64,000 nt of DNA, from positions 434,001-498,000 of the forward strand of contig NZ_CADCWQ010000002.1 in assembly GCF_902806455.1 (NCBI RefSeq), read 5' to 3'. Shown here one piece after another: positions 5,438 to 57,700 of this stretch. A program made the position numbers and the translations under genes. The notes beneath the pieces were generated by a model that made no database searches, had not been told where the DNA came from, and was given only the letters and a program-made list of their open reading frames with translations. Position 1 is the stretch's first letter. The number at the start of each line of letters is the position of its first letter. The DNA is from Virgibacillus doumboii (GTDB lineage Bacteria; Bacillota; Bacilli; Bacillales; Amphibacillaceae).

Positions 5438-5780
5438 AACTTTGAAAATCAAAATGAAATACTTACTTTTTTAAAAACGTTGAAGAGGGAAAGTAAGATA
5501 TGGTTATTTTTTCTACAGAGAGCTTCGGTAGCTGAAAAGAAGCAAAAAATACGTATCTGAAAAATGGCCTCCGAGTTTCGTGCTGAAACTATCGATCGAG
5601 ATAGTAGTAGGTTCCGACGAGTTTTGGCACTCGTTATCAATGCCAAAGTATTCAAAGCCACAACAAGGCTTGCGTACTTATTGAGGCTGTGTGTGCAAAC
5701 ATACAGTAAAGTAAGGTGGTACCACGTATATATAACCACGTCCTTACCGAATTTTAAATTCGGCATGGACGTGGTTTTTT
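5438..5780 (+). promoter_or_regulatory. T-box leader, methionine (AUG) specifier
   Basis: The T-box sequence AAGGTGGTACCACG lies at 5713-5726, followed by a terminator hairpin with arms ACCACGTCC and GGACGTGGT and a T run (5735-5780). In stem I, AGATA (5496-5500) pairs with TATCT (5554-5558) and GAGG (5485-5488) with CCTC (5568-5571). The specifier loop between them ends in ATG (5564-5566) plus one purine, i.e. a Met codon. The loop also has the conserved AGTA opposite. Uncharged tRNA-Met should stabilise the antiterminator and switch on the SAM hydrolase/ECF operon. Confidence 0.85.
5735..5780 (+). terminator. Regulated terminator of the Met T-box
   Basis: A 9-bp arm ACCACGTCC/GGACGTGGT extended by inner pairing CCGAATTT/AAATTCGG and followed by six T. 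It overlaps the antiterminator half formed by the T-box sequence. Confidence 0.85.
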
Positions 5781-9921: not shown

Positions 9922-9950
9922 TTGACATTGCAATACCACTTCCGTATGAT
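9922..9950 (+). promoter_or_regulatory. Consensus SigA promoter of the first ABC-F leader
   Basis: TTGACA (9922-9927), a 17-bp spacer and TATGAT (9945-9950). The predicted start is near 9957, followed at once by the AAGGAGG of the upstream ORF. Confidence 0.85.
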
Positions 9951-9967
9951 AAAAGAAACATAATTTG

Positions 9968-9995
9968 AAGGAGGACCTATCCGATAATGAAGTAA
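9968..9995 (+). CDS. Two-codon upstream ORF (Met-Lys-stop) with strong ribosome binding site
   Basis: AAGGAGGA (9968-9975) is followed 12 nt later by ATG AAG TAA (9987-9995). Its setting, a strong promoter then an attenuator then an ABC-F gene, indicates a regulatory uORF rather than a functional peptide. A stalled or delayed ribosome here would alter folding of the downstream leader. The spacing is longer than usual, so translation needs proof. Confidence 0.5.
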
Positions 9996-10145
9996 ACCCA
10001 CGTTTTCCAACCAATGTTTGAATACACTCAAACGAACGTTTCTGCCTGCATGAAACGAATGGGATACGTGTGTGCACTTTTTCCGGATAACCTCCATTTC
10101 GATAGTTTTAGAAAACAGGTATATCCTTATTTCCATTGTACCCAT

Positions 10146-10172
10146 TCACAGGCAGAAACCTGTGATTTTTTT
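10146..10172 (+). terminator. Intrinsic terminator inside the ABC-F leader
   Basis: A 7-bp stem TCACAGG/CCTGTGA, loop CAGAAA, then seven T, ending 24 bp before the ABC-F start codon. Confidence 0.85.
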
Positions 10173-10195
10173 ATTGAAAAAATGGGGGTATGGTT

Positions 10196-11965
10196 ATGTT
10201 TGTTTTTAAAGCAAAAGGTCTCAGTAAAGAATGGAACGGTAAAACACTTTTTCAAAACGTTGATATCGAATTGCGTAAGGGTGAGCATGTTGCATTATTT
10301 GGACGAAATGGAACAGGAAAAACAACCCTTTTGAATGGACTGCTTGGAAAAATTCAATTCGATTCGGGTACTGTGCAGTGCCTTGTTCCCTCGGATGACT
10401 GGGGTGTGCTTGAACAAAATCCGGATGTCGACTCACAGCTTACAACGCTGGAATTTGTACAACAGGCAGCCGGGAAGGTTTATCATTTAAAAAAACAACT
10501 CGATAAAATGCATACACAGACTGGTTTCAATATGGAAACGTATGAACAAGTCTACAATGCGTTTTTGGCACTTGACGGATTTAGTTTGGAAACAGAGGCA
10601 GAAGCGGCACTGCAGCAGGTGAACTTGTCTTCATCTGTATGGGAAAATTCATATCATGAGCTGAGCGGCGGGCAAAAAACGCGGGCGCAGCTGGCACGGC
10701 TTATCCTGCAGAATCCTGCATGCATCATCATGGATGAACCTACAAACCATTTGGATAAAGAAACAACCGAATGGCTGGAGAATTGGTTTATTAACTATTC
10801 CGGTGCGGTATTGTTTGTCTCGCATGATCGTTATTTTCTGGATTGTACAGCTGATGCTATTTATGAGTTGAATAGTGATGGCTGCAGGCGTTATGAAGGT
10901 GGATATGCTTCATACAGGAGTCAAAAAGAAGTTGAACAACGTACGCAGGAATCCATTTATCGGAAGCAGGAGCAGCGAAAAGAAGAATTACTCAAGACGA
11001 TTCGCAATTACCAGCAGTGGTTTCAGCAGGCACATAAAGCAGCCGGGCAAGATGATTTTGCAAGAGCGAAAGCGAAGAAAAATGTGTCACGGTTTAAGGC
11101 AAAAGAGAAGGAATTGGAACGCCTGGAAAATAACAAAGTTCAGAAACCCCAGGCCGATAAGAAGCTAAATGTTCAATTGGATGGAAGCTCCTTCTCAGCA
11201 AAAAGACTTCTGCAAATCGAGGACCTGTCGTTCTCTCACAGTAAGGATCAGATGCTTTTTTCCAACTTAAATACCTCGATTTACAGAGGGGATCGGATTG
11301 GCGTTATTGGCGAGAACGGTACAGGCAAATCGACGCTGTTAAAGCTGATTTCCGGAAAACTAACCCCAGATAAAGGAAAGATTAAGTTGAATCCGCAAAC
11401 AAGAATCGGTTATTTTGCCCAGGAACTTGAAAATCTTGATGAAGGGAAGACGATTCTGGAAAGTATGCTCGAATTGCCTAATATGACCCAATCGGAAGCA
11501 CGAACGATTCTCGGATGTTTTTTATTTTCAAGAGAGGCTGTATTCAAAAAGATTTCTTCCTTAAGCATGGGTGAAAAATGCCGGGTTGCCTTCCTCCATC
11601 TGTACTTCAGCAATGCGAATCTATTAGTTTTGGATGAACCGACGAATTTTTTCGATATAGATACGAAGGAAATCATTGAGGGTGTTTTACAGGAGTACCC
11701 TGGAGCATTGGTCATTGTTTCGCATGATCGGTATTTAATCAAAAAAACTGCGAATCGAATTATTGAGCTTGGTGATCGAGACGTCGTTGATTACGAAGGA
11801 GATTATCAGTCATTCCTGGAGCATAAAAACAACCCAGGTAAGGAGAATGATATCCGTGAACTGGAACTGATGCTGACCCGGTTGATGAGCACCGAAGCAG
11901 AAACGGATGAAGAACAGGAACGGATTCTTGCTGAAATCAAAAGAATCCGGCAATTGCTCGGGTGA
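10196..11965 (+). CDS. ABC-F ATPase, probable antibiotic-resistance (ribosomal protection) type
   Basis: 589 residues from the ATG 7 nt after GGGGG (an ATG two codons earlier is too close). There are two ABC domains and no membrane segment. Domain 1 has GRNGTGKTT, LSGGQKTR and MDEPTNHLD; a charged linker at about 240-320 is the P-site tRNA interaction motif region; domain 2 has GENGTGKST, LSMGEKCR and LDEPTNFFD, the last a change from the usual NHLD. ABC-F proteins bind the ribosomal E site and dislodge antibiotics or relieve stalls. The attenuator leader strongly suggests a drug-inducible resistance factor (macrolide, lincosamide, streptogramin or pleuromutilin class); the drug range is unknown. 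Confidence 0.85.
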   Translation: MFVFKAKGLSKEWNGKTLFQNVDIELRKGEHVALFGRNGTGKTTLLNGLLGKIQFDSGTVQCLVPSDDWGVLEQNPDVDSQLTTLEFVQQAAGKVYHLKKQLDKMHTQTGFNMETYEQVYNAFLALDGFSLETEAEAALQQVNLSSSVWENSYHELSGGQKTRAQLARLILQNPACIIMDEPTNHLDKETTEWLENWFINYSGAVLFVSHDRYFLDCTADAIYELNSDGCRRYEGGYASYRSQKEVEQRTQESIYRKQEQRKEELLKTIRNYQQWFQQAHKAAGQDDFARAKAKKNVSRFKAKEKELERLENNKVQKPQADKKLNVQLDGSSFSAKRLLQIEDLSFSHSKDQMLFSNLNTSIYRGDRIGVIGENGTGKSTLLKLISGKLTPDKGKIKLNPQTRIGYFAQELENLDEGKTILESMLELPNMTQSEARTILGCFLFSREAVFKKISSLSMGEKCRVAFLHLYFSNANLLVLDEPTNFFDIDTKEIIEGVLQEYPGALVIVSHDRYLIKKTANRIIELGDRDVVDYEGDYQSFLEHKNNPGKENDIRELELMLTRLMSTEAETDEEQERILAEIKRIRQLLG

Positions 11966-22699: not shown

Positions 22700-22816
22700 A
22701 TGAACATTACTGGTAGCGGCATATCAAAATTTACAGAATACCTGTGGATTTGCTATGCGCTTTTTTCCGATGTTTCTTTCCAGGGGATACGTATGTCCTT
22801 TTTTAAGACAACTTAA
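22700..22816 (+). CDS. 38-codon leader peptide ORF upstream of second ABC-F
   Basis: AAGGAGG (22685-22691) is followed by an ATG at 22700 and 38 codons (MNITGSGISKFTEYLWICYA start, ending MSFFKTT). It is rich in aromatic residues and ends 51 bp before a terminator hairpin. Two segments inside it are complementary to sequence just past its stop: TTACTGGTA (22707-22715) with TACCAGTAA (22826-22834), and TTTTTTCCG (22761-22769) with CGGAAAAAA (22817-22825). It is therefore a likely translation sensor rather than a functional protein. Confidence 0.6.
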   Translation: MNITGSGISKFTEYLWICYALFSDVSFQGIRMSFFKTT

Positions 22817-22947: not shown

Positions 22948-24576
22948 ATGATTGTATGCAGTATACAAAATGTAACGCAGATTATTGGTGCAAATACTAT
23001 TTTTGAAGGAATTACAACTGAAATTAAACAAGGTGACCGGATTGGCCTAATTGGCAGAAATGGTGAAGGGAAGACGACGCTGCTTGATTTGATTGCCCGA
23101 AGAACGCAGCCGGTCTCGGGTCAGATTACCTGGAAAAAGGATTCGACGGTAGGGTTGCTGGAACAAACGCCAGAAATTGCTAGCAGGAAAAAAGTTGAAA
23201 CCATCCTTTATGAAGTCTTTGCTTCGATTGAAGAAATGAAAGTACGTATGACAAAACTGGAACGTTCTATGTCAGAGGAAACGGATCCCGACAGATTAAC
23301 CCGACATATTGAAAAATACGGTGCCCTGCAGGAGAAATTTCAGCAGGATGGCGGCTATGAAGTCGACTCACAAATCAGAAGAATTATGAGTGGATTGAAC
23401 ATTGATAGTTTAGCTGAAAAGGAATGGCAGCAGCTTAGTGGCGGTGAGCGGACAAAAGTTGGCTTAGCGCAGCTGTTGTTAACTTCACCAGACCTGTTAC
23501 TGTTGGATGAACCAACGAATCACCTGGATTTATCGGCTATTGAGTGGTTAACAAACTTTATCAATCAGTACGACGGAACAGTGGTGATTGTTTCCCATGA
23601 TCGTTATTTCCTGGATGAAACAGTCACGTCGATTTTGGAGATGGATCAGGGGGAACTGATTAAATATCATACGAATTACTCTGGTTTTGTAAAAGAACGG
23701 GAAGAACGTCTGCTCAAAGAGTTTCAGCAATACGAGGACCAGCAAAAGAAGATTAAAAAAATGAAAGAAACAATCAAGCGGCTGAAAGAGTGGGCAAACC
23801 AGGCCAATCCGCCGAATGACGGACTTCATCGCCGGGCTAAAAGTATGGAAAAAGCACTGGCGCGAATGGAAGTAAAGAAAAAGCCTATTTTGGAACAGAA
23901 AAAAATTGACCTGGATTTTCAGATGAACAAACGCAGTGGAAAAGATGTCGTGAGCTTGGAGGAAGTTTGTAAGTCTTATGGTGACCGGCAGTTATTTTCC
24001 AACGTGAATATGTTAGTCCGGTTTCAGGAGCGGATTGCCATTATTGGTGAAAACGGAAGCGGTAAGTCGACAATATTGAAAATGATATTAGGCAGTGAAT
24101 CCGTGACAGACGGCGAAATCAGGCTTGGAAGCAATTTGTCGGTCGGCTTTTTATCACAGCACATGTTTGAAATGGATGGTGAACGGTCAATTCTTGATGA
24201 ATTTCGTGATCAGGTCCATGTGACAGAAGGTGACGCGCGGGGAATATTGGCGAGGTTTATGTTTTACGGGAAGACTGTTTTTCAAAAAGTGAAAAGCATG
24301 AGTGGCGGTGAAAAGATGCGGCTGCGACTGGCACAGCTCGTCCATCAGAACCATAACCTGCTCATACTTGATGAACCGACCAACCATTTGGATATTGAAT
24401 CAAAAGAAGTTCTGGAGGAAGCACTTGATCAGTTTGATGGCACAATAATCGCAGTTTCCCATGATCGTTATTTTCTGGATAAAATCTTCCCGATTACGTA
24501 TTGGCTTGCTGATGAGGACCTGAATAAATACGACGGAAATTACTCTTTCGCCCGGGAGAAGCGAAGTGTGCAATAG
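22948..24576 (+). CDS. ABC-F ATPase, probable antibiotic-resistance type (second copy)
   Basis: 542 residues, similar in size to B. subtilis VmlR and ExpZ. Domain 1 has GRNGEGKTT, LSGGERTK and LDEPTNHLD; a Lys/Glu-rich coiled linker (about 248-315) is the ribosome-reaching motif; domain 2 has GENGSGKST, MSGGEKMR and LDEPTNHLD. There is no membrane part. It is expected to act on antibiotic-stalled ribosomes. The attenuator leader with a 38-codon ORF supports drug induction. It is distinct from the first ABC-F (10196-11965) in sequence and leader type. GGAGGAAGAGAATT precedes the ATG. Confidence 0.85.
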   Translation: MIVCSIQNVTQIIGANTIFEGITTEIKQGDRIGLIGRNGEGKTTLLDLIARRTQPVSGQITWKKDSTVGLLEQTPEIASRKKVETILYEVFASIEEMKVRMTKLERSMSEETDPDRLTRHIEKYGALQEKFQQDGGYEVDSQIRRIMSGLNIDSLAEKEWQQLSGGERTKVGLAQLLLTSPDLLLLDEPTNHLDLSAIEWLTNFINQYDGTVVIVSHDRYFLDETVTSILEMDQGELIKYHTNYSGFVKEREERLLKEFQQYEDQQKKIKKMKETIKRLKEWANQANPPNDGLHRRAKSMEKALARMEVKKKPILEQKKIDLDFQMNKRSGKDVVSLEEVCKSYGDRQLFSNVNMLVRFQERIAIIGENGSGKSTILKMILGSESVTDGEIRLGSNLSVGFLSQHMFEMDGERSILDEFRDQVHVTEGDARGILARFMFYGKTVFQKVKSMSGGEKMRLRLAQLVHQNHNLLILDEPTNHLDIESKEVLEEALDQFDGTIIAVSHDRYFLDKIFPITYWLADEDLNKYDGNYSFAREKRSVQ

Positions 24577-57450: not shown

Positions 57451-57700
57451 TATAATAGATGAAACGTTGACAAGGATTAGTACAATTTGATCGTCTTTCG
57501 CAGAGAGGAAATGGTAGCTGGAAATTTCCAGAGACACAATTTGGAACCTGCCTTTGAGTTCGCCATCGGAAAGTTTTACTGTAAGATGTGCGCGGTTCAT
57601 GACCGTTATCATGTCAAGTGTACAAAGCTTTAGTTTTTTGCTTTGTAAACAAGGGTGGTACCACCAAACCTCGGTCCCTTAGCAGGATGGAGGCTTTTTT
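57451..57700 (+). promoter_or_regulatory. T-box leader, proline (CCU) specifier
   Basis: The T-box sequence AAGGGTGGTACCACC lies at 57651-57665 and a terminator hairpin with a six-T tail ends at 57700. Stem I is around 57470-57560; the conserved AGAGAG and the specifier region ending GGAACCTGCC are visible. The codon before the closing purine is CCT (57547-57549), Pro, matching the downstream proS. Confidence 0.87.
57669..57700 (+). terminator. Regulated terminator of Pro T-box
   Basis: CCTC and TCC pair with GGA and GAGG around a small loop, followed by six T (57695-57700). It lies 31 bp upstream of proS. Confidence 0.75.

Follow-up and report, generated by a model that had tools for sequence, protein, structure and literature searches.

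An intrinsic ABC-F gene of Virgibacillus doumboii very probably stands under a drug-inducible attenuator that acts, like that of vmlR, on both transcription and translation and whose upstream open reading frame (uORF) has been reduced to a minigene of two codons, a reading that we draw from sequence comparison and modelled folds. Leader and gene lie in a stretch of 64,000 nucleotides, hereafter the window, whose coordinates are used throughout. The mechanism class is already known (vmlR, cplR); the new parts are the conserved two-codon sensor, natural versions that are free of a terminator, and a shared GGGATWCGTGTG motif, which is a candidate polymerase pause.

From the sequence, its conservation, the covariation of its helices and the switching of the nascent RNA in silico, we infer the drugs, the kinetics, the pause and the release of the second hairpin (SL-4) in the following scheme. 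Without drug, a ribosome would load at the strong Shine-Dalgarno sequence (SD), form one peptide bond, terminate at once and leave; the vacated SD, spacer and uORF would then pair with the GGGATACGTGTGTGC...CCGGAUAACCUCC arm as an anti-antiterminator (AAT), and the terminator would form. In RNA that is read through all the same, SL-4 would hide the SD and start codon of the ABC-F gene. If a drug blocked the first peptide bond, the ribosome would be held on the uORF start codon; in that case, or with termination delayed, the AAT could not close; 10038-10063 would pair with 10141-10159 as the antiterminator (AT), the terminator would be destroyed, and the ABC-F start would be freed because the AT encloses one arm of SL-4. 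Pleuromutilins, lincosamides and streptogramin A are the expected inducers; macrolides are unlikely ones for so short a peptide.

The leader and its ABC-F gene

Of 159 genomes of the family, 12 (its own counted) have an ortholog of the gene at E <= 1e-130, and the 12 orthologous loci (L001-L008 and L123-L126, L001 being the window leader) span 4 genera, with proteins of the other orthologs 63-76% identical. Table 1 gives the features of the window leader. The promoter, SD, ATG-AAG-TAA, terminator and antiterminator of 11 + 7 bp that an earlier note had read from the letters were all found where it had placed them (sequence, script and scan), as were the competing hairpin 10037-10057 and the pairing of SD bases 9970-9974 with 10091-10095.

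Table 1. Features of the leader and gene, in window coordinates
Feature	Position	Strand	Basis or remark
ECF-transporter-like gene	ends 9918		leader runs from there to the ABC-F gene
Promoter: TTGACA 9922-9927, 17 nt, TATGAT 9945-9950	9922-9950	+	11 of 12 consensus bases
SD of the uORF, AAGGAGG	9968-9974	+	sequence, orthologs
Two-codon uORF ATG AAG TAA (Met-Lys-stop)	9987-9995	+	same sequence in all 12 orthologous leaders of the family
Anti-antiterminator (AAT, SL-1): SD, spacer, uORF and following bases pair with 10060-10102; inner hairpins 10016-10033 and 10037-10057	9965-10102	+	folds, covariation
Antiterminator (AT) 5' arm: 10038-10048 (with 10149-10159, 11 bp) and 10057-10063 (with 10141-10147, 7 bp)	10038-10063	+	folds, covariation
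Motif GGGATACGTGTGTGC	10061-10075	+	motif scans of genomes; putative pausing
SL-4 hairpin, 3' arm with the ABC-F SD (10184-10188) and start codon (10196-10198)	10111-10207	+	free full-length MFE folds
Antiterminator 3' arm: 10141-10147 and 10149-10159	10141-10159	+	folds, covariation
Intrinsic terminator, 7-bp stem (10146-10165) and T7 (10166-10172)	10146-10172	+	missing in L004, L005 and L006 (3 of 12 orthologs)
ABC-F ribosomal protection protein, Sal-like, 589 aa	10196-11965	+	NCBIfam NF000355

Taken alone, the promoter and terminator hits prove nothing: shuffles of the region lead one to expect 1.3 promoter-like sites and 0.4 terminator-like ones, against a single site of each kind observed. 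By eye, TATGATAAAA lies near the promoter position in 9 of the 12 orthologous leaders. The leader as a whole folds with z = -3.83, none of 200 shuffles being equally stable, and a perfect distant inverted repeat of at least 11 bp was reached by 6 of 500 dinucleotide shuffles. No Rfam match at the gathering score was found in the leader, the best weak one (E 0.12) lying far under it; elsewhere in the window Rfam marks two T-box leaders (5471-5748 and 57458-57682), the first of which precedes a SAM-hydrolase-like gene and ECF transporter genes. A 106-codon ORF across the leader (10014-10334) was rejected as coding, its ATG being not conserved (AAG in L003).

The gene scores 505 bits against NF000355 (cut-off 380), its nearest solved chain is 7p48_6, an ABC-F ribosomal protection protein, and its 449.6 bits against the next best family, Sal (ARE6; NF000169), fall below the cut-off of 725, making it Sal-like and not Sal. 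Judged by sequence, the product probably protects ribosomes from antibiotics; Sal/ARE6, the closest named family, is a pleuromutilin/lincosamide/streptogramin A factor (PMC10201436). ATG 10196 is a more likely start than ATG 10190 because the SD GGGGG at 10184-10188 sits 7 nt from the former and 1 nt from the latter, and this second ATG is kept in the 11 aligned orthologs. The ABC-F frame of L004 contains a single internal TAA.

Conserved helices and their predicted exchange

ATGAAGTAA is present in 12 of 12 orthologous leaders, in each exactly 12 nt past the end of GGAGG/GGGGG. The alignment (A2), folds and pair counts comprise 11 of these leaders; L002 was omitted because about 260 extra nt separate its terminator from the ABC-F start. 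In the alignment, the AAT has 47 pairs with 85.9% of cells paired and the AT 18 pairs with 88.7%. Changes on both sides occur in 10 AAT pairs and 20 cells, values reached by 9 and 0 of 500 shuffles, respectively, and in 4 AT pairs (3 of 500 shuffles); the number of further pair types in the AAT was no better than in shuffles (244 of 500). When partners were slid by 1-3 columns, the paired cells of the AAT and AT fell from 86-89% to 20-53%. Additionally, a comparison of cognate arm duplexes with permuted ones, which ignores the relatedness of the leaders, gave 0/5000 for AAT P1, 15/5000 for the AT, 15/5000 for AAT P2 and 280/5000 for SL-4. Covariation of the paired arms, which the earlier note had named as a check, is borne out across the 11 aligned leaders by compensatory changes in both the AAT and the AT. 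That note had also named the pairing of the uORF SD with 10091-10095; the pairing exists, with the SD bases themselves paired in 7-10 of 11 leaders per pair, but the best-kept part of the lower stem is the SD-to-ATG spacer, 9978-9983 with 10084-10089, at 10-11 of 11 leaders per pair. The uORF-adjacent spacer varies and its partner varies along with it; since ATGAAGTAA persists in all 12 leaders despite this variation, and in 14 more distant loci, its start, codon and stop look selected.

What would a ribosome on the uORF do to these helices? We folded the nascent RNA up to the AT 3' arm, once bare and once under a footprint that covers positions -18 to +15 relative to the uORF ATG. The free RNA has an expected 0-2.2 AT bp in 8 of 11 leaders (5.1 in L124, 9.0 in L123 and 11.9 in L003), while a footprint on the uORF AUG raises the pairing in 11 of 11, to 7.4-18.7 bp; for a ribosome whose P site holds AAG the values are 7.2-18.7 bp. 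A control mask of the same size downstream of SL-1 gives 0-3.0 bp in 10 of 11, the exception being L001 (16.3), which is flipped because the mask overlaps the SD partner. With the SD and spacer alone masked, the 11 leaders have 4.5-18.5 bp; a mask confined to the nine uORF bases leaves a range of 0.1-18.4 bp, with at least 9 in 6 of 11. In other words, partial masks also raise the AT, so that folding cannot separate translating codons from ribosome binding, and the RNA would read the occupancy of the start site and not the peptide.

The same folds mark where equilibrium is a poor guide. In L003, L123 and L124 (3 of 11) the unmasked fold contains the antiterminator from the outset, as the favoured form or in a mixture, and among 13 distant MK* leaders of the f50 family, which have 11.5-13.5 AT bp with the footprint, 8 also have at least 12 without it; in these leaders equilibrium folding therefore does not by itself show repression. 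Distant-leader folding covered 29 rows (L192 is without a uORF), of which 26 gave at least 4 masked AT bp; none of note was found in L204 (2.5), L205 (2.3) and L206 (0.3), and the terminator picked for these three, as for L188, was probably the wrong one.

The AT 3' arm overlaps the 5' half and loop of the terminator, so far as the transcription layer goes. Further downstream, 10 of the 11 free full-length MFE folds place the ABC-F SD in a helix with an arm upstream of it, and 9 of them the start codon too; the exceptions are L126, whose SD pairs locally instead of in SL-4, and L008, whose start codon lies outside the helix. SL-4 with the terminator comprises 27 pairs, 85.6% paired in the 11 leaders, and with partners slid by +2 still 61.8% of cells are paired; its covariation is weak and not convincing, 39 of 500 shuffles reaching the score. 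One arm of SL-4 lies within the AT-closed loop and its partner outside, which would make AT and SL-4 mutually exclusive unless a pseudoknot forms. Masked full-length MFE folds contain the AT in 3 of 11 leaders (L001, L005 and L124) and keep SL-4 in 7 of 11; because the masked equilibrium fold mostly retains SL-4, the order of transcription must matter for its release.

In L004, L005 and L006 the 3' half of the terminator and the U-tract are gone, and the AT arms and SL-4 are retained. By their sequence, these leaders appear to be natural translation-only versions, matching the behaviour of a cplR poly-U mutant that is still repressed and inducible (PMC10201436). The earlier note had placed the terminator at the centre of the switch, although 3 of 12 orthologs lack it, and had missed the second layer, the hairpin over the ABC-F SD.

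Distribution of the frame and what it may sense

A class search of 398 genomes gave matches with E <= 1e-130 in 68, the window's own included, and the best 29 of the 67 loci beyond the window's own were examined. Together with the 12 orthologs, L009-L011 and L039 (Paenibacillus elgii, 52%, the sole locus used from a generic-ABC-motif scan of 80 loci, mostly distant ABC-Fs) they make 45 ABC-F loci: 27 with a uORF of two codons, 9 with three, 6 with a longer one and 3 (L009, L010 and L192) in which none was found. The 42 uORFs read MK in 26 (13 of these rows being close relatives under one genus code, g181), ME in 1, MNN in 6, and MYN, MKN and MIS in 1 each; the longer ones are MDIQ (1), MRFDR (3), MHSDR (1) and MDHSVSFLHN (1). 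Mapped onto a tree of the 45 proteins, the state of two codons requires 3 changes; the window's group, including L181, has retained or acquired it, as has the Paenibacillus elgii-containing group, which also has three-codon members. ATGAAGTAA followed by GGGATWCGTGTG at 45-75 nt occurs in 17 of the 398 class genomes, always directly upstream of an ABC-F match; the reversed control gave none.

The window form of the shared motif, GGGATACGTGTGTGC, belongs to the 3' arm of SL-1 and partly to the AT 5' arm. The window's genome has 4 copies of GGGATACGTRTGT (reversed control 0): in this leader, in the 38-codon uORF of a second ABC-F gene, in a uORF before an MFS-like gene and in a GNAT-like CDS (the MFS-like and GNAT-like assignments by eye). 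GGGATACGTRTGTSC has 23 matches in 249 genomes of the order versus 2 for the control, of which 11 precede ABC-F-like genes and 1 an MFS-like gene (genes by eye); the other 11 fall in antiporter-like CDS (6), antisense to an efp-like gene (1), upstream of a purE-like gene (1), in terminator-like loops (2) and in L147 (1, left unassigned), and all of these except L147, 10 in number, were taken as chance or unrelated. Attenuators whose uORFs run to about 40 codons also have a near form of GGGATWCGTGTG. The motif fits the elemental pause signal G-10 / Y-1 G+1 (PMC12288461) and may pause RNA polymerase, near 10071, with the 3' arm of SL-1 still unemerged; NusG-independent pauses in vmlR map near the bottom of SL-1 (PMC9226507), which is where the window motif lies. 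The motif was absent from the 30 vmlR leaders examined. A TTATTT at 10127-10132, which fits the NusG pause motif TTNTTT of vmlR, appears not to be conserved; 4 of 11 leaders carry a TTNTTT somewhere between SL-1 and the AT 3' arm. A reading of the motif as peptide (GIRMS) was rejected for the window leader, where it lies out of the uORF frame.

Several leaders that carry the motif differ in kind. The second ABC-F gene (window 22948-24561; NF000355, 455.6 bits) follows a uORF at 22700-22816 that encodes MNITGS...QGIRMSFFKTT, with GGGATACGTATGTCC in frame and then a terminator-like hairpin, and leaders like it also precede ABC-F-like genes elsewhere in the order. At L119/L129 (G000:C2 near 330628, minus strand) a uORF with the motif (NGIRMSNF) and a terminator-like hairpin precede the MFS-like gene (by eye); at L134 and L135, in two genomes, GGGATACGTATGTCC lies in a terminator-like hairpin loop before a membrane-protein-like gene (by eye). 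L127, of family f2, is an ABC-F-like gene leader in which the motif is accompanied by a possible uORF of 5 codons, MKDHA (by eye). The genome has a third ribosomal-protection ABC-F gene outside the window (L031, G000:C2:397665-399086), whose 13-codon uORF, MASIRLRFPTLNK, is close to the macrolide-arrest leader ErmDL, MTHSMRLRFPTLNQ (PMC10314930).

What exactly could a frame of two codons sense? The proposal of the earlier note, uORF-dependent attenuation in which the two-codon uORF senses initiation or termination, is the one that comparative and folding evidence favours. The uORF might serve instead as a landing pad, the sensed event being 30S/70S binding at the strong SD and not translation of Met-Lys, and the switch would then report general initiation complexes or the supply of free ribosomes. 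Two codons do give almost no elongation to sense, and the SD/spacer mask alone raises the AT in silico, as described earlier, but ATGAAGTAA is invariant in 12 of 12 leaders and recurs in 14 more distant loci with other flanks, while the spacer varies, and loss of the start codon or SD of vmlR virtually eliminated expression (PMC9226507); we consider a mere landing pad unlikely. Slow release, or drop-off of peptidyl-tRNA at AAG before UAA, could also set the dwell time, such that the minigene would report mainly release-factor or peptidyl-tRNA problems and not PLS-A drugs. UAA ends 36 of 36 two- and three-codon uORFs, two-codon UAA ORFs are described as prone to drop-off and slow termination (PMC8708949), and a footprint placed with its P site on AAG flips the fold; UAA is perhaps just the commonest stop, however, the rows are related, and the gene resembles a ribosome protector, with Sal/ARE6 and its pleuromutilin, lincosamide and streptogramin A specificity as the closest named family (PMC10201436), all of which makes sensing of this kind decidedly improbable. 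That this is an ordinary leader, with an intrinsic terminator, a chance ATG-AAG-TAA and a gene regulated otherwise or not at all, is hardly credible: chance does yield short ORFs, and the promoter and terminator hits by themselves are about as many as shuffles would give, but the 12/12 invariance, the recurrence before orthologs in two further groups and the covariation speak against it.

If the preferred reading, a minigene on which a drug holds the initiating or terminating ribosome, is right, then the leader contains a near-minimum natural translated sensor, with a single peptide bond. Such a sensor separates drugs that act on initiation or the first bond from those that depend on the nascent chain, and it makes any role of the peptide directly testable. 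For the class at large, a broader proposal is possible, if not quite probable: the two-codon minigene would be a stable, widespread class of drug sensor (one ABC-F clade, several Bacilli families; Met-Lys-stop, once Met-Glu-stop), the smallest ORF that releases a healthy ribosome and retains a drugged one; a hard-wired GGGATWCGTGTG pause would hold the polymerase just ahead of AAT emergence; and leaders would drift between transcription-plus-translation and translation-only control by loss of the terminator. Natural uORFs of 2, 3 and 5 codons, in leaders with or without a terminator, form a set for dissecting combined attenuation. Additionally, the three ABC-F genes of this one genome have three types of uORF (two codons, 38 codons and an ErmDL-like RLR leader), perhaps three drug-class detectors in one cell.

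Relation to known minigenes and attenuators

Two-codon ORFs have precedents, among them the bar minigenes of phage lambda. Those of axe-txe mg2 and EHEC LEE1 are, like the window uORF, regulatory and situated in bacterial leaders; their proposed action is on translation or mRNA stability, and the excerpts of PMC8708949 do not describe them as drug sensors or as parts of an antiterminator switch. A two-codon uORF as drug sensor was not found among the matches listed for the open-licence literature (titles and abstract starts); the uORF finder behind VmlR2 and CplR by default accepts frames from nine nucleotides, 'three codons', upward (PMC10219788).

ABC-F genes with uORF-dependent attenuation, which the earlier note had cited as known, are experimentally established for vmlR, uORF(MIN), and cplR, uORF(MRI) (PMC9226507, PMC10201436). 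The uORFs of Clostridioides difficile cplR (MRI), VmlR2 (MK[L/Q]) and LsaA (MAGN) are likewise ultra-short, but of 3-4 codons, and that of VmlR2 begins with Met-Lys, like the window uORF (PMC10201436). cplR combines transcription and translation attenuation, as proposed for the window leader, but its terminator stem itself hides the gene SD, whereas the window leader would use a separate SL-4 (PMC10201436). In Listeria, too, a lincomycin-responsive attenuator precedes an ABC-F gene, in the lmo0919/VgaL leader (Rli53; PMC11550727).

A close counterpart is Bacillus subtilis vmlR, in which the uORF start and SD are essential by experiment and AAT, AT, terminator and SD-sequestering hairpins operate (PMC9226507). 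Common to both leaders are the short uORF inside the AAT, the AT, the terminator, the SD-sequestering hairpin and the ARE ABC-F gene, along with the sensing of stalled initiation, which in the window leader is proposed (PMC9226507). They differ in that the uORF has three codons in each of the 29 anchored vmlR-like leaders (43 genomes matched and 30 loci were taken, L150 being off the anchor) versus two here, that the vmlR-like SL-1 3' arm is GGATTAGTCTGCCC-like (30 of 30) versus GGGATACGTGTGTGC, and that the protein is Sal-like and not VmlR. The window leader thus resembles vmlR in its working, yet is not classed as a vmlR leader proper. What it shares with the vmlR/cplR type at large is a ribosomal-protection ABC-F gene downstream; a very short, conserved uORF that has an SD to itself; an AAT around the uORF, an AT and a terminator that exclude one another, seen in silico and by covariation (the terminator missing in 3 of 12); and a gene SD sequestered in the read-through RNA, as seen in 10 of 11 free folds with weak covariation.
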